Shown piece after piece: positions 377 to 20,424 of a stretch of DNA of 20,424 bases; the first letter of the stretch is position 1, and each line of letters opens with the position of its first letter. Position numbers and translations under genes: made by a program. The DNA comes from Euplotes cf. woodruffi 2 WChen-2021. Taxonomy: Eukaryota > Ciliophora > Spirotrichea > Euplotida > Euplotidae. The notes beneath the pieces were generated by a model. The model saw only the letters and a list, made by a program, of their open reading frames with translations. It was not told the origin of the DNA and made no database searches. Where the stretch lies: NCBI GenBank assembly GCA_021441665.1, contig JAGYYN010032035.1, positions 1 through 20,424 on the forward strand. Direction: 5' to 3'.

Positions 377-2042
377 TTAGGGTTGCTTAGATTCCTCCCC
401 GATTTTGAATTTTGACATCAGAAGGTTTATTACTTCGTTCAGATGCTTGATTTCGGATTTGTAGGCTTCTGATGATTTGCTTTCTGACGATATATCTGAC
501 TCGTTATCGTCTATTATTTCGTTAATTTTTTTAATCATCGAGTCAACGTTGCTGATTGCAGCTTTGTCTTTTTGATGATTTTGAGCGATTTCTTTAATCT
601 CTTTCCCGACTTCAGATCCAAGCTTGGTCTCTTCTTTCTTAGCTGTAACATAATCATCTTGAATTTCTTTGATCATTTTTACAAGTTCGTCATTTTCAGT
701 TTTGAGCTTATTCCACGAGTTTTGATAGTTTATCGTTAAATTTGAAATCTGTAATTTTATAATGATGTATCAGATTTTATAAATTTAATCATAAACAGTT
801 TAAATCTTAACAACTTCAAATTTAAGCGAAAATAAAATCTACCTGAGTTTTGAGCGCTTTATTACTTGCAGTTAAGCTCTTTTTGAGAATTAAGAAGTTT
901 TGAGTTCTGCTGCTTGAGCCAATTGATCTCTCGATTAAATACACTTGATACCTCTTTTGATGACTTATAAGCTTCAAGTGCTTCGAGTTCAAGAATCTCC
1001 TTCGCATAGTCTTCATCATACCCTTGATCGAAGTTCTTCCGTAGCTCTTTGTTTCACTGATAGAAAATGTCTTTTAAAATCCAAAGGTGAGTTTCAATTT
1101 TCGAGTTGACATCTTCAAAAGATTTCAAATCGTATATTTCTCCGTCATATGCTGTGACAATTTGGCTTTTGAGATCGTCGATCAGCTTAACATATGCTTC
1201 AGGCGAGTTTTGATCTTGTAAGTCAAGTCTCCGAATAACCTCTGCGATCTCTGCTTTGATCGGATCGGCTAAAGTTACCTTATTAGCAAAGCTTACTTTG
1301 ATTATTAGTGCATGCAGTTTCAGCTGTCCGATTTAACTTATTTACTCGCACTTCGCTTATTTGACTTGACTAATATCCGCTTCTTCAGTCGAGACTTAAT
1401 TGGGACAGCGGGGGAGGAATAATCAATCGAATCCGTGGTCTGAACGCACGGGTTATCAACGCTTATATTTATTTGCCGAATCGTATTTTTCCGAGACTGA
1501 ATGTTATCTCTGAAAAGACTGATGCTCTGCTTGAAGTCTTCAACCAGCTCGAATACCTTATTGACCATGATAAATCCCTTTTTGATTCTTGCTGAGTTCA
1601 GCTTTTGGTACTTGACGACTGAATCTTGCAAATAGTCCAGCCGTTTTTGCTCAAGAGCGTAAAACTCATTTATGTTCAGGTCTGGGTTCACTGATTTGTA
1701 CTTACTGTTGCACATCGTCTGCACGATTCAGTTGATTCGCTTTTGAAGCTCATTAATCGGACCGTTAAAATCATGCGGGTTGTAATACTCAACTGTGTTT
1801 CTCAGTAATAAATGTATGTCTGAGCCAAATCTATCGAATTCTTGGTTGATCCTTTCCTTCAATCTGAATACGTCGACTGAGTCAGGAGATACTGAATGCA
1901 CATTGCTTTCTGAGTTAAAATTTTTCAATAGTGATCTTGCTCGCTCAAAGTTTTTCTTGCTTGACTCGAGAATATTAGAAGACAGTGACTCTTTGCTTCT
2001 ATTTCTCAGTGGTCTTGTTACAATTTTCGGACTCCTCTCCAT
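377..2042 (-). CDS. Coiled-coil protein of unknown function, two stop-codon frameshifts
   Basis: Unrecognised protein of about 513 residues, read from ATG at 2040-2042 to TAA at 377-379. Exons on the minus strand are 2042-1297, 1268-843 and 748-377, with introns of 28 nt (1269-1296) and 94 nt (749-842). Two in-frame TGA codons are read as Cys (after QKRIN at 1725-1727 and after IFYQ in exon 2). Frame continuity also needs +1 shifts at AAA-TAA (1338-1343) and AAG-TAA (862-867); with both, the total length is a multiple of three. The protein is rich in K, E, Q and N with long heptad-like helices (for example EINWLKQQNSKLLNSQ), suggesting a cytoskeletal or scaffold role by inference only. Both Trp in exon 2 use TGG. 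A 22-nt GTAAAT...ACAG intron could replace the first shift; no simple intron replaces the second. The next gene starts about 75 bp away, divergently. Confidence 0.75.
862..867 (-). other. Candidate +1 frameshift site AAG-TAA
   Basis: The frame reads QKELNCK then AAG-TAA. A +1 shift gives NKALKTQ up to a GT donor at 842, and the phase-0 junction with the exon starting at 748 (ISNLTINYQNSW) keeps the frame. The donor at the AAGTAA itself would enter the next exon in the wrong phase, so a splice alternative is poorly supported here. Confidence 0.7.
1338..1343 (-). other. Candidate +1 frameshift site AAA-TAA
   Basis: The upstream frame ends NKRSASK then AAA-TAA. Skipping the T continues as KLNRTAETACTNNQ and runs in frame through a 28-nt intron into some 140 more coding residues. 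AAA-TAA is the commonest published Euplotes shift motif. A 22-nt intron beginning inside AGTAAATAAG would give the same downstream frame, so RNA is needed to choose. Confidence 0.65.
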
Positions 2043-2115: not shown

Positions 2116-4600
2116 ATGAAGGAAGACAAGAACACAATAACCATCTCTCGAGGGTCAGAAGAGCGTTCTGGACTCAGTTTAAAGTACGAATCCTACGATC
2201 CTCAGCAAGAAGTAAAATTCTCATCGAAAGGAGTCAGCTCGGATAGCTATAAAAAGTGGGGACACCTAAACTTCTCAAAAGAAGACACCTCAAAAGTTCC
2301 ATCAGTGGGCAAATAGCAATAAGTCCCCGCTGAGCATCGTAAACTATGAGACCTCAAGCGTTGAAAAATAGCATTCCGTTTCATTTCTTAGAAGACCGGA
2401 GATTTGCAGGCGATCCTAAGAATTCAGTCGAACTTGTGTGAAATGATAAAAATGTTCTTCACAGCATTGATATTGGTAATTTGCATTCTGCGAGGATATT
2501 TTGGGACTATTATTTTGTGCTTGTTGTGTAGTTTGAATCAATTAAAACTTACTGAATTAATTACAGCATATGCTGTTGTATTACCATTACCGCAAATTGT
2601 CATTTATCAGTAACTTATACTCTTAATGGGGATATGCCTTACAATAGCTGATATCTTAGTAATGCATAGTTTAGATAATACAAAACACTTTAATACATTT
2701 TTATAAGTCTTGATTACAAAATACAATACGATATTTTTGACTTAAACAAATGGATATGCTATCACATCTGACAATTTATAATAGATGACAGGAAAAAGCT
2801 TTTGATGTCTGAGCCAATGGGAATTCCTAAAATAGACATTAAAGATCACAACAAGCCCAAAGTAAAGCAAGAAAAGTCAAATTTGATGCTGAAGAAGCTA
2901 AATGAAACTCACCGTCTCCCTCAGCCAGTGTTAAAGAAAGAACTCGAGGCGAATAGTTATGCAATGTCTCCATATACAAAGGTAGGACTAGATACGAGCA
3001 AGCAAACGCAGAGTTCTCATCCAGTAATTTCAAATTAAAAAACTGCAAAAGAACTTTATTTTCAAAAGAGTTAGCAGCAGAGTTTCAAAAGACAGCAAGC
3101 AGATAAAAGGAAGAGTGTATTCAGCTGTGAGACGAAGTCAGATCAGCAATCTTGATTTGTCTAATAATTCAAATATAATCGATAGAAAAAGAATCAGAAG
3201 CTTATAGTAAAGCAAAGCCATAATGGTAACTAATTGCCTTTACCTTTTTAAATTCAATAATATAGGATCCGAAGACTCAAGTTTTCAAAAGAAGATGAAT
3301 TTAAAGATACTAAATGTCGAGCCTTATCAACAAACAATGGTCATGAGGTCGCATACAAGAGGTCTTCGATCTGTAACCAGAAAATTTGGGAAATTGTGGA
3401 ATAAATCTCCCCAGTAATTTACCATTTTTCTTTTATAAAATTTATTCACCTACTTTTTTAATCTGCTAAATTCAGACTGGCGAGCAGATTGCCATCAACA
3501 ATCAAAAGTGTCAAGAACAGTCATCGAAAGTTATCGTTGCAAAGCCAAGCCAGAGATTTAAAAATTGAAAAGCAGCAAAATCAAGAAACACTGTTTTCAA
3601 TTGGCCTTGAGATCAGCAAGCAGCTGAATGAAATAAACAAGGACATCTTCAAGACCAAATTTAGGATTCCAAGGTTTAATACCCCAAAGAACTTCATGGA
3701 GCAAGAGGACCATTCGACAAATGTCCACTCCTCCCAAGCTGGCATGGACTATTGAGGTAAGCCTTGTTAATCTGGTAAATTCCAAATCCTTTTCTATAGT
3801 TTTTCATTAAAAATTCTCATAGACGGTCCGATTCGAGTTCCTGACTCAGCAACGAAGCGAATACGAAAATAACAACAGCCAGAGCATCAATTCAAACAGG
3901 CTTTACACATCGATTGAGAGGATAAAGCTAAAGCCGGACTCTGCAAACGGATGTAAATACCTAAGTTCACCTGGTTTAGTGTACGAGCACAAGTTAGAAA
4001 AGATCAATGCAAGCATTGCGAAGTTCGAAAAGAAGCTTATCATCCCATCAAGGTAAACTCCATTTTTCACATTACAGAGGGCTGCAGTGCAAAGAGTGCA
4101 ATAAGCGGTTTCCAAAAACAGAATTCAACTCACCTCGAGAAACCGTGAATACCGATATCTCAAGGCCAAAGGATTACTTCATGGAGACCGATGATGAGTC
4201 GAGAGACTCTTTAGACATGAACAAAGTCACTTCGATCAATATGGAGCGCAAATACGCAGCCATAATGAAAGTCTGCTCCGATCTCAATAGGCTTAAGCAC
4301 GTGATTGCCGAGATGCAGAGCCGCCTGTCGCGAAGAACCGAGCAGTTTTTGAACAGCGACTCGGTGTCGAAGATCATAATGACGTATAAAGCACAGCAGA
4401 TGGGGCTGAAAAGTGAATATGATATAAAGCAAGAAGGACTGAAACAGGAAAAGGGCACGAAGGAAGCTATTATCAGCAAAATTATTAACAAAAACAAAGT
4501 GCTTATTCTTGAAAAGAACAGACACCTGAACCTGCTTAAGAAAAAGGGACAGAAGGATCGGCAGTTTGATTATAAAAACATCATGCAGGTCTTAGAGTAA
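2116..4600 (+). CDS. Low-complexity and coiled-coil protein of unknown function with many stop-codon frameshifts
   Basis: Unrecognised. ATG at 2116, TAA at 4598-4600. Supported exons: 2116 to about 2450-2490 (donor unresolved), 2792-3206, 3266-3413, 3476-3756, 3823-4052 and 4078-4600; the last two introns are 66 and 25 nt. TGA is read as Cys at 2448-2450 and 3753-3755. Stop-linked shifts are needed at AAA-TAG (2311-2316), AAA-TAG (2366-2371), AAT-TAA (3033-3038, or a 28-nt intron), TTA-TAG across the 3206/3266 junction (unclear, because two frames are open in 3266-3413), and AAA-TAA (3867-3872). The N-terminal part is polar and Ser/Lys-rich. A CKECNKRF pair of cysteines resembles half a zinc knuckle but lacks the second ligand pair. 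The last 130 residues form a strong coiled coil. The exon at 2116 could belong to a separate gene, since the AT-rich gap 2490-2791 is long; no alternative start with a promoter is obvious. Confidence 0.65.
2311..2316 (+). other. Candidate +1 frameshift site AAA-TAG
   Basis: The frame reads SKVPSVGK then AAA-TAG; +1 gives SNKSPLSIVNYETSSVEK, 18 codons until the next AAA-TAG. Only a 19-nt intron could mimic it, smaller than any other intron inferred here. Confidence 0.55.
2366..2371 (+). other. Second AAA-TAG frameshift site in the same gene
   Basis: Coming from the frame entered at 2315, SSVEK meets AAA-TAG. A +1 shift continues SIPFHFLEDRRFAGDPKN and on through a TGA (Cys). None of the GT-AG pairs examined around it has a length that restores this frame. 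Confidence 0.5.
3867..3872 (+). other. Candidate +1 frameshift site AAA-TAA
   Basis: DSATKRIRK ends at AAA-TAA; skipping T gives NNSQSINSNRLYTSIERIK and 60 codons to the donor at 4053, then the correct phase into the coiled-coil exon. A 46-nt intron (GTTCCT donor) would also fit but is GC-rich with a poor donor. Confidence 0.65.
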
Positions 4601-5184
4601 TTAATTCCTACTTTCAATTTTTATTGCTCGAAATTTAGGAACTTTTGTGCATACAAGGAATTGAGATATGGGGTACAGAAATTAGAGAGGCCATAAGTGA
4701 GGAGGAGGATTAAAAAAGAAAGAATAAAGGATGGTTGTGTTGTTATTTTTTATGATTTATTAAGTCGTATACCTTAAAATTGTATTTTATGAATGTTTTT
4801 ATTAATAATTATTTTTGATAAAAATATTATAACTTTATATTTGTCAGAATTATTTAACATATGACTAATAAATTAAAATCATTTGTTTTAAATTTAAAAA
4901 TATTCAAATTTGATATTACTACAGAATTTGAAAAAACAAGGAAGTTCTTTTTAGCCCACCTCCTTGTTTAATCCCTTGCATTAATATCCAAATTCGATTT
5001 GGAGGTGGACAGGAAATCGAATTCACAGACTCAGTTTCCATTCCTGTTAATTCAATTTTTTTTAAATTTCATATTCATTCTCAATATTGCTGTAGACATC
5101 CCTTAAAAATAAATAACCTAAAACAATCGTTATTGAGAATTGTTTTGAACAAATCTTGAATATTACAGAACATCTCTATGATTA
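4601..5184. other. AT-rich spacer between converging genes
   Basis: This is the 3' flank of two convergent genes (the coiled-coil gene ends at 4600, the kinase at 5185). It is strongly AT-rich with no coding frame, except for a GC-richer inverted-repeat cluster at 4934-5047. No telomere repeat, tRNA or mobile element is seen. Confidence 0.7.
4934..5047. repeat. Cluster of nested inverted repeats (tandem hairpins)
   Basis: Stem 1: AAACAAGGA 4934-4942 with TCCTTGTTT 4961-4969 (9 bp, 18-nt loop). Stem 2: AATTCGATTT 4991-5000 with AAATCGAATT 5014-5023 (10 bp, 13-nt loop). In addition CCACCTCC 4956-4963, at the loop and 3' arm of stem 1, is complementary to GGAGGTGG 5001-5008 in loop 2. ACAGGAA (5009-5015) is complementary to TTCCTGT 5041-5047. 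The matches are exact. Function is unknown: transcript 3' ends, germline processing or chance are all possible. Confidence 0.6.
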
Positions 5185-5784
5185 TTATTTAAATGCTTTC
5201 TTGACATCTTCAAAAACTTCATCAACTGGTTTTCCTGAATTAATCTTTTTGACTTTTCCCAATTTTTCATAGTTCTTGATCACAGGAAGTGATTCATTCT
5301 GGAAAGTCTCGAATCTTTTCAAAATAGTAGCTTCATTATCATCAGCTCTTCCGCTTTCCTGTCCTCTCTTGAGTAATCTTTCCCTCATGACGTCTTCGCT
5401 GACATCCATAACGAGCACAAATTTAAGTTCGACAGTATCTCCGATTTGTTTATTCCATTCATCGATATTTTCTTGATTTCTCGGGAACCCATCGATCAGG
5501 TACTTCTTGCCCTTAATGTTTTTCTTCAGGAGCTGTACGAGCAAGTCGCTAGAGACAAGTTTTCCTTGGCTCATGACTTCATTGAGCTTGTCTGCGAGTT
5601 CGCCTCCTTTCTTAACCTCTTCTCTGAGTAAATCTCCGGTCGAGAGGTGTCCGTAACCAAAATTCTTGACGATTCTCTCGCACTGAGTACCCTTTCCACT
5701 GCCTGGCCCTCCGAGCACGAATACGACCTGCGGCTTGTCCGACGGAGAAGATGCGTCTGCTGCTCTTGCGCTTCCACAACCCAT
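5185..5784 (-). CDS. Nucleoside monophosphate kinase (UMP-CMP/adenylate kinase family), N-terminally acylated
   Basis: Transfers phosphate from ATP to an NMP. The 199 residues match the short-LID class. P-loop GGPGSGKGTQC lies at about residues 25-35, the NMP-binding part is HLSTGDLLREE (about 46-56), then LIDGFPRNQENIDEW, and the short LID segment RGQESGRADDNEATI. The FPRNQEN and SGRADDN signatures are typical of UMP-CMP kinase. The Thr of STGD is the adenylate kinase type, where UMP-CMP kinases usually have Ala, so substrate preference is open. The start MGCGSARA is a consensus N-myristoylation site with Cys3 available for palmitoylation, predicting membrane or ciliary targeting like mouse AK1-beta (inference). 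No TGA, intron or frameshift; TAA stop at 5185-5187. One Trp uses TGG. The 5' half is visibly richer in G/C-ending codons than the 3' half. Confidence 0.93.
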   Translation of the reverse strand: MGCGSARAADASSPSDKPQVVFVLGGPGSGKGTQCERIVKNFGYGHLSTGDLLREEVKKGGELADKLNEVMSQGKLVSSDLLVQLLKKNIKGKKYLIDGFPRNQENIDEWNKQIGDTVELKFVLVMDVSEDVMRERLLKRGQESGRADDNEATILKRFETFQNESLPVIKNYEKLGKVKKINSGKPVDEVFEDVKKAFK

Positions 5785-6234: not shown

Positions 6235-9119
6235 ATGGAGAACTCCCGCAAACTCAGCGCCAAGATCAGAAAGAAGTCCAAGTCCCGCCTGCTCATGCGC
6301 AATATGTCCAACTACAATCTCGGAAAGTAAGTTTATACTTTATTTTTGGGAGTTTTTCACAGTTGATTTGCAAAAGCAAAGATTAATCAAAAACAAAGTT
6401 GCGCACTGGAATAGCAGGCGACATCTTTTAGAGTTCAATGGATAATTTTACCAAATTTTACTATATAATTTTGCTTTAAGACTCGAAACCAAGTTTTGTA
6501 TTTAAATTTCAAATTATTTTGAACCGATAAATTTATGATTTACTTTAATAGAAGTAAAAAATTTGTATACTTGAAATAGAAATTATTTATAAAATTTATA
6601 TGAAAAATAATTTATTCATTTCCACATATTTTGAGTATTTTTTGACTTTAAAATAATAAAAATCAAGCTATTGAATTCTTGTAAAGAATGCAAGAGATAT
6701 GCGGAGAAATATAAATCTCTGGTGTATAGAATATCGCCAATAAACTCAAGCTTGACTCCAGCTTTCATTGCAACAAAGACTCACTTGTTTCAAAGCACAA
6801 CTAAAAATAAAGGTGGAGCTGAGTGGAAAAGAGCAAAATTATTTTACTTCATTTTTACATTTGGTAATAACGAATTTATTTAGATTCAAAGGAATTCAAT
6901 TTTGATACCGATTCAACTCTCCTTTCTCACTTGGAGCGAAACAAACGGCAGAGAAACGAAAAGATAAAGTGATACATAAGTAACCAAGACAACACTGGTA
7001 AGATTATAGTTTTCCTTTGCAAACTTTAAGCTTAATAAGTATATGAAAAGATCCAAAAGTACGTCAGGACCAGCAACACAATTAAAAATAACACGATTAC
7101 AAAAGCCAATGCGTCACAGATGATCTCGCATTTGGATCAAATAAAGAAGAGGAGGTCAAAAGGAAACTCAATGCAATACAACGGGTACGGTGATTACTGC
7201 TTTCTGTATTTACAATCTCACTGTAAAACGTTTGTTATAATTCCCCTTCTTTAGCAACCTTACAGATATTCATCATAAAAATCAATATCTGAACTCAGAA
7301 GAGCCTGAAGAATGCGAAGACGATATGGAAGTGGGCGACTCCAAAGACGGCGTAATGTCCAAGGATTTAAATATCGACAGTATGCTTAACAACTCAAAGA
7401 ACAACATCGGTGGTACATCGCGACGAAAGAAATCAGTTTGCATTACCGAAGGCTCGAAGTTAATGAAGAGGTCTTCTGGGTTAAATAAGACTCACGACTA
7501 TTTAAACTCCACAGCTCAGATCCACGCAAATCCGCTTCGGCTAAACTTAAATAACAGCTTGCAGAAGGAATCATTAAATGATGAGCAAAAGATATTTATT
7601 AAAAGCCGAAGAGTTGATATGCATAACATACAAGGAAGTATTTTTAACAATTACCGCAGTAATGTACCGAACCAGAGCCAGTCGAGAAGCTCGCAGAGAT
7701 ACGCAAAGACTTTCGACACTCCAGAAGAACTGAGGCACTCAAAGGTCTTTGAAAGCGACAAATCAGAAGTCATTTGCGAAGACATAGAGGATACATTTGA
7801 TAGGGAATACATTAACATGTCGTCTACTTCAAAAACGCAAAAACAATCAGACGTAACTCCAAAGAAAATCGATAAAAATAAAACTGCGAAAATAATGATG
7901 TTGGTCGATGACGACGATGAAGATGACTATATCAGGCCTGACGAGGAAATCATGATCACTCCTTCCACTGGTAAAAAGTAGCACCCCGGTTGACTACCAG
8001 AAGACATTAAATATGCAGTCGGACTCTATTGAAAAACCTCTCAAATGTGTGTCGAAATTAAGTAAGCTTGTAATTAGTAAACCTTTTGTAGGCTGAGCGA
8101 TTGAGTCTGATAAGTTAGTCAAAAATAATAAATCAAGCTCTTTTATCGTCCCGAAAATAGAGCTCTCACTTATTAACGATAAGCAACAAGAGAAATGTAA
8201 GCAGGCTTTAATAGTTAATGATTTTATAATTAGTTCTTTTGAGTAATCCTTAATAAAATCGATAATTTACAAAAAGAAAACTATTTTGAAGTAATTTTAT
8301 ATTATTCATAACAACTGTTAATAATTTATATCTAGACTATCAAGATGTGTCCAAAAAGAATCATGATCTTAATGACTCGAACTCTGAAAAAGAAAATAAT
8401 AATCGGACTATAAACCGAGTGGACATTCTAATGATGAGTAAAGACTCAAAGCTCACTCGGTACCGGGAGATGGATTCAGACCGATTCAGTGAAAAATTAA
8501 GAGCCTCGCATTCTCGCAAGTTTAGCCAACCTATGGATTCTGAGCTTAAAGTTGAAGACTTATAAAGATGTCTCAAAATATTAACAGTCAGAAGCCGCAT
8601 CACAGATCAAATCAGTCGGTGTTCATCAACCCAATTACAAAAGATGAAAAGTACTGTCAAACTGAATTCGATGATGGCTCATCAGATCAAAAGAATAAGA
8701 GCAAAGAAGCCAAAGATCAGGATAAAGAAATCGCAAAATGGAGGAAAGCCTACTTCAACGAAAAGCAAAATCACAAAGCAACAAAAGAGGTCTTAGACCA
8801 AGCTCTTGCACTTTCAATGAAGCTTCTTGAAGAAGTCAAAACTCTCGACGTCAAGTTGTACCAAGAGACAGAGAGAAACAAACGGCTTAAAATAGCAACA
8901 ATCGAGAATTACTGAAGTAAAGACAAGCAGTCGTGAGATCGAGGGACAAGCGGATCTCCTTCAAAGGGAGTCAACGATGAGCCCTCAGGTTCTTCTTACT
9001 CGCAATTTATTCGCAAATCAACAGAGGAAATTGAAAACATTATTCGGAGAATCCAGTTTGACAGCGACAAAAAGAAAAGTGCAGAGAAGCCACCTCAGCC
9101 ACCAAAGACACAAAAGTAA
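6235..9119 (+). CDS. Large disordered protein with C-terminal coiled coil, unknown function
   Basis: Not recognised. ATG at 6235; the first exon (to 6326) is basic and G/C-rich in codon ends. A frame rich in Lys and Cys (CKECKRYAEKYK) at 6668-6880 and another at 6890-6997 are probably exons, but their junctions are unresolved. From 7040 the frame is firm: exons 7040-7184, 7255-8196 and 8336-9119, with introns of 70 and 139 nt. Within it a +1 shift is needed at AAG-TAG (7976-7981) and a +2 shift (or -1) at TTA-TAA (8560-8565). TGA is Cys at four or more places, including 8913-8915 (after IENY). The protein is Ser/Asn/Lys-rich with an acidic run (LVDDDDEDD near 7900), then a helical coiled coil (KWRKAYFNEKQNHKATKE). 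It ends QPPKTQK-TAA (9117-9119). A scaffold role is only a guess. Confidence 0.7.
7976..7981 (+). other. Candidate +1 frameshift site AAG-TAG
   Basis: A 240-codon frame ends STGKK then AAG-TAG. Skipping T reads STPVDYQKTLNMQSD and stays open, through a TGA (Cys), for 72 codons to the donor at 8197 in correct phase. The GT-AG pairs tried here give lengths of 23, 26, 30, 33 or 48 nt, none of which restores the frame. Confidence 0.7.
8560..8565 (+). other. Candidate +2 (or -1) frameshift site TTA-TAA
   Basis: The frame reads ELKVEDL then TTA-TAA. The downstream coding frame (KMSQNINSQKPHH) is entered by skipping two bases. Only a 17-nt intron could mimic this. +2 shifts at stops have been described in Euplotes but are rarer than +1. 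The alternative is a separate gene starting at ATG 8568, which would leave a 2-bp gap between genes. Confidence 0.5.
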
Positions 9120-10337: not shown

Positions 10338-12438
10338 ATGGTAAAATTACAAAGCAAATGGCCTGCATGAACTTTGATGCTGGCCTTGATGCTTGCAAAT
10401 CTTTCAAATGCTGATGATACGAATTTTCCTTCGTTCAAATGAGGAATTGTTGATAAGGGAAAATCAGTTCAACTAAAGAAATCTTCAGATCCAATTTATT
10501 ATGCTGTAAGTGATTGACTTCAGAAAAGGTAAGAATATATCACAATTTAGAAGATATTATATATCAAAGTCAAATAATTTATTATTGATAAAACTAACAG
10601 TTTTCCATTGTTTTTCTCAAATTTTCTATATAAAAATTCAAAATTCTGTATCAACTTGTAAATCCGCAATCTCTGCATAAAACAGTCTAATCTTTATTAA
10701 TCATCTTTCATTCCGACTTCAGCTAAATTCTATTTCCAAATAACGATCAACTACAATTCCCTTCCTTTATCGATGATTTAATTTAGGTATCTGAGTTCAG
10801 CCCAAAAGCCAGGTAATTTTGATTCGACTAATAAGCTACCGATTTGCAGATAAATCAGCTGTTTAGGATACGACTACAAATCAGGGGATGCTGGTTGAGA
10901 CTACGTTCCTGACTACCAAGAGTTCGAAGTCTGCGACCAGGACAACCAAACTGGATTCACGTGTGCTCACGGCCTTAGTTGCTCCGGCCAGATTGATTTC
11001 CAAGTAGATGGTAAACCCATTTTAAGGCTGTTTGAGTTTTTATATCTCTAGGCGTCAAAAATCCTGCTTTTTGAACCAGGGCCGGAATAGAAGAACATGG
11101 TGGAGAGATGGTTGATACTATACGCGCACTTAATCGGGTGGAGAGTGAAGAAGGGGATGATGTGTTTTTATTTCATGTTACTGAGATTACTGAAAGTGGA
11201 GAGATTTCAAAAACAGCTCGTCTTTTTCAATACGATGCAGGTTTTAAGTATAAAGTCAATCTTGATGACTTCAAAACTGTTCCTCATCAGTTGATTTGAA
11301 AATCTGGATATTCTCTTGAGCTTCTTGATAAATCTGGACATATATGACTCAAAAAAGATGATGAAGCTAAAGCTGATTGATATGAAAAACCAGATTTTAC
11401 AAAGGTAGAAAACTGATTAAAAGTGGAATGATATTTGAGCATATTTTTGTTTTCAGTATTTTTTGAACAAAAGAAATAATAGTATAACCATATTCTGAAT
11501 AATCATTTAATAATGGACGTATATCCTTTAACTAGTAAAATTATTATTCAAATTTTTGTTTAGACAGCAAGTACACAATTCTACGGTCCTCGTAAGCCAA
11601 ACGATATATGTTACTACGAAAGGACCTGTTCCAGCAGCATGTCTGAGTACGCCTCATACAGTACAACCTCGCACATTGGTTTTAACCCACTCGACCGGAA
11701 TGGAAAAGTAGTATCATTTTGTCCGTTAGCCAGAGGGAAGCTTCTAAATTCACTATACAACTACTGTAAGTTTCCCATAGCTATAAATCCCCACTTCATC
11801 ATTTTTTATTAGTAATCTGATGCCCGTGTAATTCTATCTTCTCTATTTAAACTGTGATTTAGTCCACGATAACGCAATTGCCGCGAGTCCGATAGAAAAA
11901 GATCTCTTCGTGATGTTCAACATGAACAACAGGTAAATTGTGAGTAATAATTTACTAGGACGAGCTGTCCGAGCGAATGCCTTGCTTACATCGACAAGTT
12001 CTCCTTAACTTCAGGTAACAAATCACTGCTTTTATTTTTGGATTTTTAATTATAAAAATCAGCAAAAATGGGGTTTTAGAGCCTTGGGCGGTTTTGCATT
12101 CACGCAGTTAAGTTACTGATTTTGTAGGAAATGTGAAGAACAGCGCGTATTTTCATTGCTTGCTGAGAAACTACACACAAGAGGTTAAGAACTTGATATG
12201 GCTTAAGTAAGACTGGTTTTTGATAGTGACTGAGCGATTAATGTATTTAGGTACTATAAATTGGTATATTTGCTGCAGCCTGGTACGTATACTCGCTTAT
12301 ATACGCTTAGATGGATACGCTAAAGTTGCGAGTAATGACAATTGAGTCAAAAGAGTCATAACGAGAGATTTTTACGGAGATGAAGGAGTCTACGGTATTG
12401 GTCCAAACCAGTTTAGCGATTTTTATGAAACAGAATAA
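10338..12438 (+). CDS. Secreted cysteine-rich protein, ten exons
   Basis: Unrecognised 426-residue protein. It starts MVKLQSKWPA then a hydrophobic run (TLMLALMLANLSNA) and a likely signal-peptide cleavage before DDTN. Ten exons join in frame: 10338-10528, 10787-10812, 10867-11010, 11052-11404, 11564-11765, 11863-11932, 11959-12014, 12128-12206, 12251-12282 and 12311-12438. Introns are 258, 54, 41, 159, 97, 26, 113, 44 and 28 nt. The mature part has about 17 Cys, roughly half written as TGA and half as TGT/TGC, in motifs such as FTCAHGLSCSGQ and RTSCPSECLAY; there is an N-glycosylation sequon at RNYT. No second membrane span is seen, so it should be secreted or peripheral. The TAA at 12436-12438 may be followed by a 30-codon +1 extension. 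The boundaries of the first and fourth introns are the least certain. Confidence 0.75.
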
Positions 12439-14700: not shown

Positions 14701-15558
14701 ATGTCTGTCCAGAAAAAGCAGAGCAAGCAAGCTAAAACTAGTGAAGAAGTCAGTCCGCAGCCTGTTGTTGATTTTGCAGCAATTATGAAGCAACAACTTG
14801 CATCGATTAGCAAAGAGCCTATAGCAGAGCCGAAAATAAATAAGTCTACTGAGAAAAAGACTGTCAAGCACGCCAAACAGCCAGAGGAAGAACTAAAATC
14901 AAGTAGGTTTCGGTGGTTGAATGAAAAACTATACACATCTCAGAGTGCGGATTCTTTCGAATACTTCAAGCAAAATGAGGACTGATTTCGGGATTATCAC
15001 GAGGGGTTTAAAAATCAGGTCAAAAAGTGGCCTAAAAATCCTGTTGATATATTCATCAACGAGCTGCTCAAAGAAAAATACCACAGCAAAGTAATTGCTG
15101 ATCTCGGGTGCGGAGAAGGCAAACTTGAGTTAAGACTAAAAGAGCAAAACCCAAAGAGGACTATTTATTCGTATGATATCGGTAAAATGGACGATCATGT
15201 GATACAAGCAGATATCTCTAATCTGCCGCTTGAAAACCACTCTCTAGATATTGCGATATTCAGCTTGTCCTTAATGTTAACGAATTTTGTTGAAATGCTG
15301 ATTGAAGCGAATCGAGTGCTGAAGCCTGATGGACTACTTTTTATTGCTGAAGTCTCAAGCAGATTAGAAATCAATAAATTTGTTTCTTTACTCAAACAAA
15401 TAGGTTTTAGTAAGCAGAAGGTCAGCCAAATCGAAACTTTCTTTTATGTTATGATTTTGAAGAAAGAAAATGAAATCTCGAAGAAAGCAAGAAAGAAACT
15501 GATTAAATCGATTGACTCTCAAGAGTATTTAAAGCCATGAAAATATAAAAAGCGATAG
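14701..15558 (+). CDS. RRP8: Rrp8-type 25S/28S rRNA adenine N1-methyltransferase (nucleomethylin family)
   Basis: SAM-dependent methyltransferase; in yeast and human this family makes m1A in large-subunit rRNA in the nucleolus. 285 residues, single exon. The basic N-terminus (about 1-75) is variable. Then come the Rrp8 hallmark SSRFRWLNEKLYTS (about 65-80), DYHEGFKNQVKKWPKNPVD, SAM motif I VIADLGCGEGKLE (about residues 131-143), the acidic-loop motif YSYDIGK, LPLENHSLDIAIFSLSL and EANRVLKPDGLLFIAEVSS. Two TGA codons must be read through: 14983-14985 (between NED and FRDYHEGF) and 15538-15540 (after YLKP); the true stop is TAG at 15556-15558. Under the standard code the gene would be split before its catalytic domain. 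The conserved Trp of FRW and KKWP are TGG, which argues TGA is Cys. It is convergent with the DDX21-like gene. Confidence 0.93.
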
Positions 15559-15919: not shown

Positions 15920-18086
15920 CTAATAGCGATCTCCTCTATACGAGTCTCTATTATTACTATGTCCTGAGTACCCATTTGACTTTGAGTCAGCATTTCCGTG
16001 ATTTCGGAGTCTTGATGTATATCCAGATCCGCCTCCAAATGAATTGTTAGAGTTAAAGCCTGACCCACCATGGCCACCATCATATCCTCCAGATGGTCGT
16101 GATCCAAATCTTCCGCCACCGAAGTCTTTCGGGAAATCGTTTCCATATCCACCAGGTCTTGGTCTTTGTTCATAGCCGCCTCTTCTAAATCCAGATCCGG
16201 ATGATCTGCCTCCAAAACCTCCTCGTCTTGGTTCGATTGGAGGAGCTTCAGTTTCGAAGAGTTCAGGCAGTTCTTTAGCGACTTCAATTTGATAGCTCAT
16301 CGACCTTCTTGAGTCTTTTTCATTTTGGTACAGATCTTGCACTGCGCTTGTGTGTTCTTCTGGGACATCGAATACTGCCCCCTTTTTGCTATCGTACATT
16401 CTCATTCCTCTGATGGCGTCAACGATATTTTGAGGAAGGAGTCTTCTCAAAATTCCCCATACGTATGAGATGCCTCTGAATTCCTCGTTCGTTTGCAGAT
16501 CAAAGGTTACGTAGTGTTCCTCACCTGTGAGGAGAGACCTCTTTTTAATTGTTTTTGTCGTCCCTGAAATGTACGCGAGGGCAAGCGACACTGCTTTTAA
16601 CGCGCCCTTCGAGTCAATTAAATTCTGAGCTGTATCTTCAAATAGCTTCAGGACCTCTTCGTCGACTTTATCGAATCCTTTGATAGCCTCCTTTGCTGAA
16701 GACTTAATGATTTCTTCGGGTTGGGGTGCTCCGATTTTCTTTAGTTTAATTCCTGCTTTTGATTCGATTAAATTGATCAATCCTTGCTGCTTTTTAGTAT
16801 AAAAAGTAATGCATGTTCCGCTGTTTCCAGCTCTTGCAGTTCTTCCAGATCTGTGGATGTATGTCTCCACATCCTTTGGTGGTTCAAGCTGGATGACCAA
16901 ATCGACGTTTGGAATATCAAGTCCTCTTGAAGCGACGTCAGTAGCAACAAGGACATTGAACTTTCCTTCTCTAAATCTTTTGAGGGTAACTTCTCTTTGA
17001 TTTTTGGGCAATGTCACCGTGTAAGACCTCTACGTCGTGAGTGACTTTATCTGCGAGCATGACAGTGTTGGCATCTTGCTTTGTTTGCGCAAAAACAATA
17101 GTTTTTCCGTGGAGTCCACCATAACAAAGTAAAATGTCTGCTAATGTATTTGTCCTGTTTGTATACGGGCAGTTAATTGCTAAATGCTGCACAGTTCGAG
17201 ATGTTTTGTTCTTCAAGTCCTTCACAAGATCAACATAGCGATAGTCTTGGTTTAAATACTTGCTCGCAACGTTTTTGACCCAAATAGGGATAGTTGCGGA
17301 GAAAAGTAAAAATTGAGGTTTTGCTTTCGCATCTTTTGTAATGTTTGACATGATCTTTTCAACGTCTTCCTGGAAGCCCATGTTTAACATTTGATCTGCT
17401 TCATCCAATCAGACTGCTTTTATTGTGCTGAAGTCGATATTTCCTCTTTCAATGTGGTCAAGTACTCTGCCAGTTGTTCCGACGAAGAACTCAACTCCTG
17501 ATCTGAGTTCTCTCGTCTGATCATCAATAGAAACACCACCGTAGACTGTAATTACTTTGTATTCAGTTTCGGAGTGCCTTAGTGCTTTCAGTTCTTTCGC
17601 GACTTGCAGTGCGAGTTCTCTTGTCGGAGCGAGGATGATAGCCAGCAGTTTGCGTCTATGCTCCGACCTCGATTCAGATGAAAAATACCCGAGTTTTCTA
17701 TACTTTTCGACAAGAGGCAAACAAAAAGCTAGTGTTTTCCCAGACCCAGTCAAATCCCTCGCGATGAGATCGTCTCCGCCGTAGATGTAGCGGAAGGTTG
17801 ACATTTGGACGGGGAATAGCGTTGTAATTCCTCTAGCATTGAGTCCTTTGACAGTATTATCGGTAAGTTCTGGGAAATCATCAAAGTTGGTGTCTTTCTC
17901 CGAGTTTTTGATAGAGCTCTGGTCCATATCGCTTCTCTCCTCCGAGTACTCCTTGCTTTGCTCCTTGAGATCCCTCTTCCTCCTCGGCTTCGGTGAGGAA
18001 CTGCGGTCTTTAGATTTTGGAGTGTCGTTGTTGGGTGACGACCACCGATTTCTTTTGCCTATCCTTGATTTGCGAGTGTCTTCCAT
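15920..18086 (-). CDS. DDX21: DDX21/DDX50-like nucleolar DEAD-box RNA helicase with GUCT domain and RGG tail
   Basis: ATP-dependent RNA helicase. By family it acts in nucleolar pre-rRNA processing. ATG at 18084-18086, TAG at 15920-15922, about 721 residues, no intron. The N-terminus is Ser/Lys/Arg-rich. Motif order: Q-motif region (LFPVQMSTFRYI), motif I DLTGSGKT, Ia PTREL, Ib TTGR (usually TPGR), II LDEAD, III SAT, IV IVFAQTK, V ATDVASRGLD, VI HRSGRTARAG. The GUCT domain follows (GEEHYVTFDLQTNEEFRGIS to GAVFDVPEEH), then a Gly/Arg-rich tail (RRGGFGGRSSGSGFRRGGYE). TGA at 17409-17411, directly before LDEAD, is read as Cys. The frame breaks once at an A5 run (17001-17005), inside the conserved segment after LHGDIAQ: one A fewer would give the expected NQREVTLKRF. 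The conserved Trp in PIWVKN and YVWGIL are TGG. Confidence 0.93.
17001..17005 (-). other. One-base frame break at A5 homopolymer inside the helicase
   Basis: Upstream frame LHGDIAQ, downstream frame NQREVTLKRFREGKF. Removing one A from the run (T5 on the + strand) joins them in the family consensus. No stop codon sits at the break, so it is not the usual Euplotes shift. As written, the upstream frame would run KSKRSYPQKI to ATT-TAG, where a +1 shift would re-enter the correct frame. Confidence 0.7.
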
Positions 18087-18720: not shown

Positions 18721-20424
18721 TTATGATCTTGTTCATCTTCATAATCTTCATCATTTTCATCTTGATGATCTTCTGCGTCCATTTCTTCCATCTCTGGTGC
18801 TTCATGAACTGGTTCTACATACCCTGTGCCTTCCTCATCCTCTTCTACAAATATAACTTAACTATTTTTACCTTCGTCCATTCCTTCGCCTTCTTCATAG
18901 TCTTCGCCTTCTCCTTCATATTCCTGTTGGATCGGCTGTTGGAGCATAGCTTGGTCTACAGTCGGAAAGTATGCATGTTCTGCATTCAATCTTTCTAACT
19001 GTTCTGCCTTTTGAAGAAGCACCTTCTGCTCTGGAGTGAGATGATCATCAACATTTAATTTTGCTTCTCTAAGCAAGTTAGCATACTGTTCAACTTCTTG
19101 CATTCGGAGAAGCTCTTGGAAGAAGTTCTTTGATGCCATTTCAACTAGCAGCGGACGATTAGCGACATTAATTTCTATTTCAGCCTTTTTCCTTTCGTAT
19201 TCCTTTTCTAAAATTAGTCATTTTTCAGCGGCCTGTCTTCTAGCTCTTTCTCTCATTTCTCTCAAGGCTTCGGTATTGTCAACGATAGCAGGAGATCTGA
19301 TTACTCTTTCCTTCATTCTCGTTTGCTTGAACTTTCTTTCGAGTGCTTCTCTCGCATTCAAATGCTCGCTAATCAGCTTTGACTCGAGCTCTCTTCTTCT
19401 TAATGCGATTTGGGCGTCAAATTTCTTAGTGCTTTGCGCGCATTTCAGCGGTGGCTTCAGAGACTCGATTTCTTTCCTCATTTGTCTTACGTTGAAGGTC
19501 AGTAGCTTTTCTTCTGGACGGTTTGCAGCGTCCATGTACTGCCTTAGCTCTTTATTCGGTTTCGTTTCGCAAAAGTTGAATGGAACCATTTTTGTTCAAC
19601 TTTTAGACTGCCTCTTTGACTCTAAGCCTTTGTGGAAGTTCAACTGTAAAGTTTCAAAATCAGGCACTGGCTTTGATGGAGCTGGTTTGAAGGTAAACTC
19701 TGGATTTTCATATGACTTTGATCGCTTTTGGATTTCATTAGTTTCCTTTATTTTCTCATATAACGCCATTCTAGGAGGAAGCTTAGATTGAGCTAAAGCT
19801 AGTTCAGCGTTTTGCTTGATTCTTAATTCGCGCTCTTTCTTATCCTTTTTCATCATATAATCGTACATTTGAATCTTTGCATGGCCTGGAACAGGATTAG
19901 CTTTAAATGGCGGATGATTCATTACATCATACTCTGGATCATAAATAGGTGTCACTGCGTTACTGTATCTTTGCTGAAATTTCATCATATCTCGATCATA
20001 AAATGAAAAAGGCTTAGCTGCTTGTTTGTTGATTAAAAAGTTTTCTTTGTTTTGTCTGCGCCTTTCTTCCTGCTGCTTCAACAGCTTCTCGTAGCGCGGC
20101 TCGAGCGTCGACTTGGGTATCTCCTTGGCCCTGAACTGCTGCGACATCTCGTACTCGTCTTCGAGGTACTTGTACTTGATCATCTCTTCGAGCTTGCGCT
20201 CTCTGATGCTTTTGCCTTTCTTTTTGTCGCGCTTCATGAACGCAGGGTCGCCCGGAATCGTGATGCGGTACTTGCCCTTGCCGTCGTTGCGCGGAAACAT
20301 CGGGAACTCGGCCATGCGCTTGTTGACTTCGTTCTTGATCGCCTTGTTGCGGGCCGCGACTTCGTTTTCGTCGACCTCGTCGGCTGCTCCGCTGTCGATG
20401 ACTTTGCGCAGGTCGGCGTCGGAT
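18721..20424 (-). CDS. FAM161: FAM161-family basal body/ciliary protein (5' end outside window)
   Basis: The frame is open to the window edge upstream of the ATG at 20313-20315, so the N-terminus is cut off by the window and that Met is internal. Exons 18872-20424 and 18721-18844 flank a 27-nt GTA...TAG intron (18845-18871); stop TAA at 18721-18723. FAM161 features in order: RAKEIPKSTLEPRYEKL, KPFSFYDRDMM, HPPFKANPVPGHAKI, LPPRMALYEKI, FTFKPAPSKPVPDFETLQLN, MVPFNFCETKP, then a long Arg/Glu-rich helix and a Glu/Asp-rich acidic tail in exon 2. Two TGA codons are read as Cys (before TKMVPFNF and after RRQAAEK). In animals FAM161A is part of the centriole inner scaffold and connecting cilium; a basal-body role in a ciliate is inferred. 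Codons from about 20080 to the window edge are strikingly G/C-ending, unlike the rest. Confidence 0.8.

Follow-up and report, generated by a model that had tools for sequence, protein, structure and literature searches.

A probable intron-rich Euplotes gene whose mRNA would shift frame at three internal AAA-TAR stops

Introduction

In Euplotes, stop codons within a message lead to +1 frameshifting while stops near the mRNA end terminate translation, and the shift sites have been treated as a nearly neutral, non-regulatory feature (PMC10235951). The motif AAA-TAR is found in 3489 of the 3700 shifted genes of E. octocarinatus, and AAT-TAR in only 29 of the 3700. Two genes of E. amieti, BBS7 and CKAP5, carry three AAA-TAR shifts each (PMC12106347). 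Introns can be tiny, with a modal length of 26 nt in E. aediculatus (PMC10449743), and in the E. nobilii gene En-MAPK1 the cDNA showed that, owing to a 47-nt intron, an in-frame TAG does not end the gene, while an AAA-TAA shift stayed (PMC3645696). Macronuclear chromosomes of Euplotes usually hold one gene on roughly 2 kb (PMC4759687), and the motif WWATTGAA/TTCAATWW has been reported beside telomeres (in subtelomeres) in E. aediculatus (PMC10449743).

Here we analysed a 20,424-nt stretch of DNA (the window), in which an earlier note had proposed a single gene at 2116-4600 with up to five stop-codon frameshifts. This locus resembles the known shifty stops of Euplotes in having AAA ahead of TAA or TAG, a +1 change of frame, open coding sequence afterwards and a position far from the 3' end; it differs from the usual case in that two of its sites lie 18 codons apart and in that it is known here from sequence alone. 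BBS7 and CKAP5 match it in number and type of shifts (PMC12106347), but their shifts came to light when the genes were aligned with known proteins, whereas the protein of 2116-4600 has no detectable relative in the databases searched. En-MAPK1 combines an AAA-TAA shift with an in-frame TAG that, owing to a short GTA-TAG intron, does not end the gene, the pattern that we propose for two further stops of the locus (AAT-TAA and TTA-TAG), although it has only one shift and one intron, unlike 2116-4600 (PMC3645696). The introns of 25, 28 and possibly 27 nt resemble the tiny GT-AG introns of E. aediculatus (PMC10449743), from which the 28-nt intron differs by its AAG acceptor. The proposed shifts of 2116-4600 are those of the known Euplotes mechanism, with a somewhat unusual spacing.

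Methods

Gene structure was evaluated with a semi-Markov gene model whose codon usage was trained only on the other genes of the window. It allowed for introns of the GT-AG type, whose donor was GTAA-rich, and for +1 shifts at stops; +2 shifts were rare and indels optional. Its +1 shift weights favour AAA, following the literature, while the donor and acceptor weights were the author's settings from general knowledge and were not fitted. A stricter donor model was used, an earlier lax one having placed weak GTG introns. The codon-phase (frame likelihood) test was calibrated by leaving genes out.

Results

The window uses the euplotid genetic code. Throughout it, TGA is a sense codon (Cys) and TAA and TAG are stops, and conserved genes and Cys-rich ORFs are open only when read so; TGA fits Cys in the V-TGA-LDEAD stretch of the helicase, and the Cys-rich reading frames hold many TGA codons. 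Genes for an adenylate kinase (5185-5784, minus strand), an RRP8-type methyltransferase (14701-15558, plus strand), a DDX21-type helicase (15920-18084, minus strand) and FAM161 (from 18717, minus strand) read with TGA as sense or end in TAA/TAG. Introns of the window are of a tiny GT-AG type. A search for tRNAs and Rfam RNAs found none.

Several adjoining genes are carried by this 20-kb window. Of the copies of the motif WWATTGAA/TTCAATWW, 15 fall between genes, in stretches that make up 22% of the window, and 8 lie within genes; for the 60 distinct letter permutations of its core the mean was 4.2, with none of the others reaching 15. Such clustering between genes is what chromosome breakage sites of germline DNA would be expected to show. 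Given both the multi-gene stretch and the enriched break-like motifs, the source is therefore likely to be germline (micronuclear) DNA of Euplotes.

Starting at 2116, the best indel-free path through 2116-4600 (plus strand, as are all features of the gene given below) takes shifts at AAA-TAG 2314, AAA-TAG 2369 and AAA-TAA 3870. The introns that it splices out lie at 2476-2784, 3024-3051, within 3127-3281 (one or two), and at 3414-3475, 3757-3822 and 4053-4077. An AT-rich spacer of 73 nt lies directly ahead of ATG 2116, with the neighbouring gene head-to-head, and contains just 5' of the start codon the break-like motif AAATTGAA (WWATTGAA, 2101-2108), placed as in the subtelomeres of E. aediculatus (PMC10449743). 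A second copy, TTCAATTT (TTCAATWW, 4613-4620), follows just 3' of the stop, and the two copies flanking ATG 2116 and the stop at 4600 support the stretch being one gene. Reading five shifts without splicing, one meets 21 further in-frame stops ahead of 4598; introns are therefore required under any shift model, and the gene needs at least six whatever the shift count. A pure intron model free of shifts was 34.5 log units worse and was rejected.

Coding segment 1 (2116-2313; 66 codons from the ATG, frame 1) is open, with its frame favoured by 9.6 over the next, and ends at frameshift site 1 (AAA-TAG, +1, 2311-2316), a classic AAA-TAR context whose barring costs 11.3 log units. Segment 2 (2315-2368; 18 codons, frame 2) has no stop and its frame is favoured by 4.9; it leads to site 2 (AAA-TAG, +1, 2366-2371), the barring of which costs 9.5 log units. 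By the frame likelihoods, the coding frame changes by +1 across both sites. Segment 3 (2370-2475, frame 0, favoured by 5.9) runs into an AT-rich intron of 309 nt (GTAATT...TTATAATAG, 2476-2784; posterior 0.88), in which the coding score is strongly negative in all frames. An exon in frame 0 (2785-3023, favoured by 11.6) is followed by a 28-nt intron (3024-3051, GTAATTTC...GCAAAAG, 21% GC; posterior 0.95) that holds AAT-TAA, and then by an open exon in frame 1 (3052-3126, favoured by 2.9) that may extend to 3206. Splicing is uncertain within 3127-3281, the region with TTA-TAG, where the model places either introns at 3127-3185 and 3226-3265 or a single intron at 3207-3281. The next exon (3282-3413, frame 1) may begin at 3266, and codon usage does not separate frames 1 and 0 over it.

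Downstream, the gene model places an intron of 62 nt (GTAATT...TTCAG, 3414-3475), an exon of 93 codons without a stop (3476-3756, frame 0, favoured by 6.2) and a 66-nt intron (GTAAGC...TCATAG, 3757-3822) whose posterior as a phase 1 intron was 0.97 with indels barred. The short exon part ahead of the third shift (3823-3869) is read in frame 0, its phase being unsettled, as frame 1 leads by 1.5 over these 15 codons. Site 3 (AAA-TAA, +1, 3867-3872; posterior 0.98 with indels barred) opens an exon in frame 1 (3871-4052, favoured by 7.5) with a possible in-frame intron of 27 nt at 3953-3979, and a 25-nt intron (GTAAAC...TTACAG, 4053-4077; posterior 1.00) precedes the last exon (4078-4600), which comprises 173 codons in a frame favoured by 27.2 and ends with a charged, coiled-coil-like C terminus at the TAA stop 4598-4600. 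In genomic distance, the three sites lie about 730-2280 nt upstream of this final TAA. The last exon had no relatives among GTDB genomes and IMG/VR viral contigs or in the PDB, and the assembled protein had none in Pfam. The product is probably a structural protein of coiled-coil type, a function that we infer.

We confirmed that all five stop contexts of the earlier note are present (AAA-TAG at 2311-2316 and 2366-2371, AAT-TAA at 3033-3038, TTA-TAG at 3202-3207 and AAA-TAA at 3867-3872), as is the spacing of 18 codons (55 nt) between the first two stops. The open +1 frame said to follow each of them was found after four (18, 53, 56 and 61 codons) but not after TTA-TAG, and the proposal of up to five shifts was supported for the three AAA-TAR sites only, introns being the better explanation of AAT-TAA and TTA-TAG. 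The slippery AAA directly precedes TAA or TAG at 2311, 2366 and 3867, and is absent at the two other stops. The earlier note is fair in taking one or two shifts as the usual number for published genes, though genes with three have been published (PMC12106347).

With indels barred, the three AAA-TAR shifts had posteriors of 0.98-1.00, and with indels allowed the two AAA-TAG shifts kept 0.97-0.98. Under an equal penalty for every pre-stop codon, shifts 1 and 2 were still placed at AAA-TAG, but the AAA-TAA of the third lost to TGT-TAA at 3768; with the original weights, the best model lacking AAA-TAA 3867 also shifted at TGT-TAA 3768 and was 4.0 log units worse. In the model, a third shift would be needed either way, and its location rests on the known AAA preference. 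When indels of 1 nt were allowed, the model chose an indel near 3750 with frame 1 in place of the third shift, at AAA-TAA, and the posterior of the splice choice tied to this shift fell to about 0.2. We hold the third shift less firmly than the first two because free indels remove its preference.

The AAA context was compared to its background frequency. AAA stands ahead of 5 of 107 out-of-frame chance stops in intact coding sequence and ahead of 105 of all 1559 stops in the window, and three AAA codons at three stops are unlikely by chance (about 1 in 10,000, with the sites counted as independent). Open frames on both sides of a stop are not discriminating, since window-wide they also flank non-AAA stops in 74 (+1), 79 (+2) and 57 (read-through) cases, and this property was dropped as evidence. 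What does exceed chance is that the three shifts needed by the gene model lie in an AAA-TAR context.

An alternative explanation for some of the gaps, chiefly 2476-2784, is that they are internal eliminated sequences of the germline and not introns. While the multi-gene 20-kb context and the intergenic break-like motifs suggest micronuclear DNA, the GT-AG ends and the exact codon phase fit splicing, which makes elimination unlikely; the choice between intron and eliminated segment leaves the shift count unchanged.

The main rival to real shifts is that the three AAA-TAR breaks are base insertions of a long-read assembly and that the true gene is shift-free. Each break would disappear if its A-run (of 3, 5 or 4) were shortened by a base, and the nearby DDX21-type helicase has a frame break without a stop in an A5 run. 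However, there is no need for errors to land right ahead of TAR, and in intact coding sequence TAR comes after just 5 of 190 A-runs. About 1,700 other codons hold one indel compared to three in about 600 here, and site 1 has only three A's, so that we consider assembly error unlikely. The helicase break itself (16990-17010, minus strand), a stop-less frame change at CCCAAAAATCAAAG within the conserved HGDI-Q-QRE motif, is probably an assembly indel in the A-run.

Translation could also start at ATG 2346 in frame 0, with 2116-2313 being either a small gene of its own or an upstream ORF, in which case only the third shift would be needed. This ATG shares the frame that runs through 2475, but the model was 27.8 log units worse, 2116-2345 is coding-like and in phase, and the AT-rich spacer and break-like motif directly precede ATG 2116 instead; a start at 2346 is accordingly quite improbable. 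The suggestion that the gene is decaying and its stops accidental, also raised by the earlier note, draws on the several stops within one gene and on constraint not being seen through homologues (none were found in the searched databases). It is disfavoured to the point of being very improbable, as the coding phase is held in most segments, the three unavoidable stops are all AAA-TAR and the introns have canonical ends and correct phases.

Regarding the two other stops, AAT-TAA lies inside GTAATTTCAAATTAAAAAACTGCAAAAG (28 nt), a correctly phased GT-AG intron whose removal (3024-3051) brings CCA next to AAC and changes the frame by exactly as much as a +1 shift would. Reading it as a true shift costs 7.6 log units compared to the intron, and only 3 of 91 out-of-frame chance stops in intact genes can be bridged by a GTAA intron, which speaks against a shift at this stop. 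The weak point of the intron is its acceptor, AAG, which is weaker than the usual TAG or CAG. In the model, AAT-TAA appears best explained by this 28-nt intron. At TTA-TAG, a +1 shift yields five codons (SKAKP) and then TAA. This stop overlaps the donor GTAAAG at 3207, just ahead of a second donor at 3226, and over 3127-3281 the two intron models without a shift scored 218.2 and 217.5, 3-4 log units better than a +2 shift at TTA-TAG (214.3). Model scores make a shift here possible but worse than splicing, and splicing at the overlapping donor would best explain the stop. A reading of all five stops as shifts, +1 or +2, is hardly credible, even though AAT-TAA and +2 shifts are known rare Euplotes sites and the model takes +2 at TTA-TAG (posterior 0.41) when all pre-stop codons cost the same, and such a gene would exceed the three shifts per gene that we found published.

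Discussion

We conclude that 2116-4600 is probably one intron-rich, Euplotes-type gene in germline DNA, with an mRNA in which three AAA-TAR stops are shifted. What the sequence shows is open frames, a coding phase kept over most of the segments, and introns that fit together with the shifts. Splicing would remove at least six introns and leave an mRNA with three internal AAA-TAR stops. At each of them, the lysine tRNA on AAA would move forward by one base (AAA-U to AAU), a putative slippage that may be caused by poor recognition of internal stops by the release factor in Euplotes, and the ribosome would read on in the +1 frame as far as the true stop, close to the 3' end.

A spacing of 18 codons between two shifts seems somewhat unusual but calls for no new mechanism; our literature search found no published survey of shift-site spacings for comparison with this value. 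Three AAA-TAR shifts, two of them this close, offer a natural test of the shifting efficiency required in Euplotes, and the closely spaced pair a test of mutual interference. The locus also illustrates that, on genomic data alone, tiny introns in Euplotes genes can be mistaken for additional frameshift sites.

Other genes of the window were also inspected. A gene at 10338-12438 (plus strand) encodes a Cys-rich, secreted-looking protein; numerous TGA codons occur in the gene, for which about nine introns are predicted, and a Pfam search with part of the protein gave no significant match. The FAM161 gene has a clear tiny intron of 27 nt, GTAAAAATAGTTAAGTTATATTTGTAG, at 18845-18871 (minus strand). 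The neighbours of 2116-4600 share its style, with tiny introns and a candidate AAG-TAG shift at 7979. In the head-to-head neighbour (377-2042, minus strand) the frames are broken: an AAA-TAA near 1340 could either be a shift or belong to an intron of 22 nt, another intron, of 28 nt, lies at 1296-1269, and AAG-TAA occurs near 860. In the gene at 6235-9119, AAG-TAG at 7976-7981 (plus strand) is followed by a +1 frame open for 88 codons, which makes it a candidate shift at a codon other than AAA.
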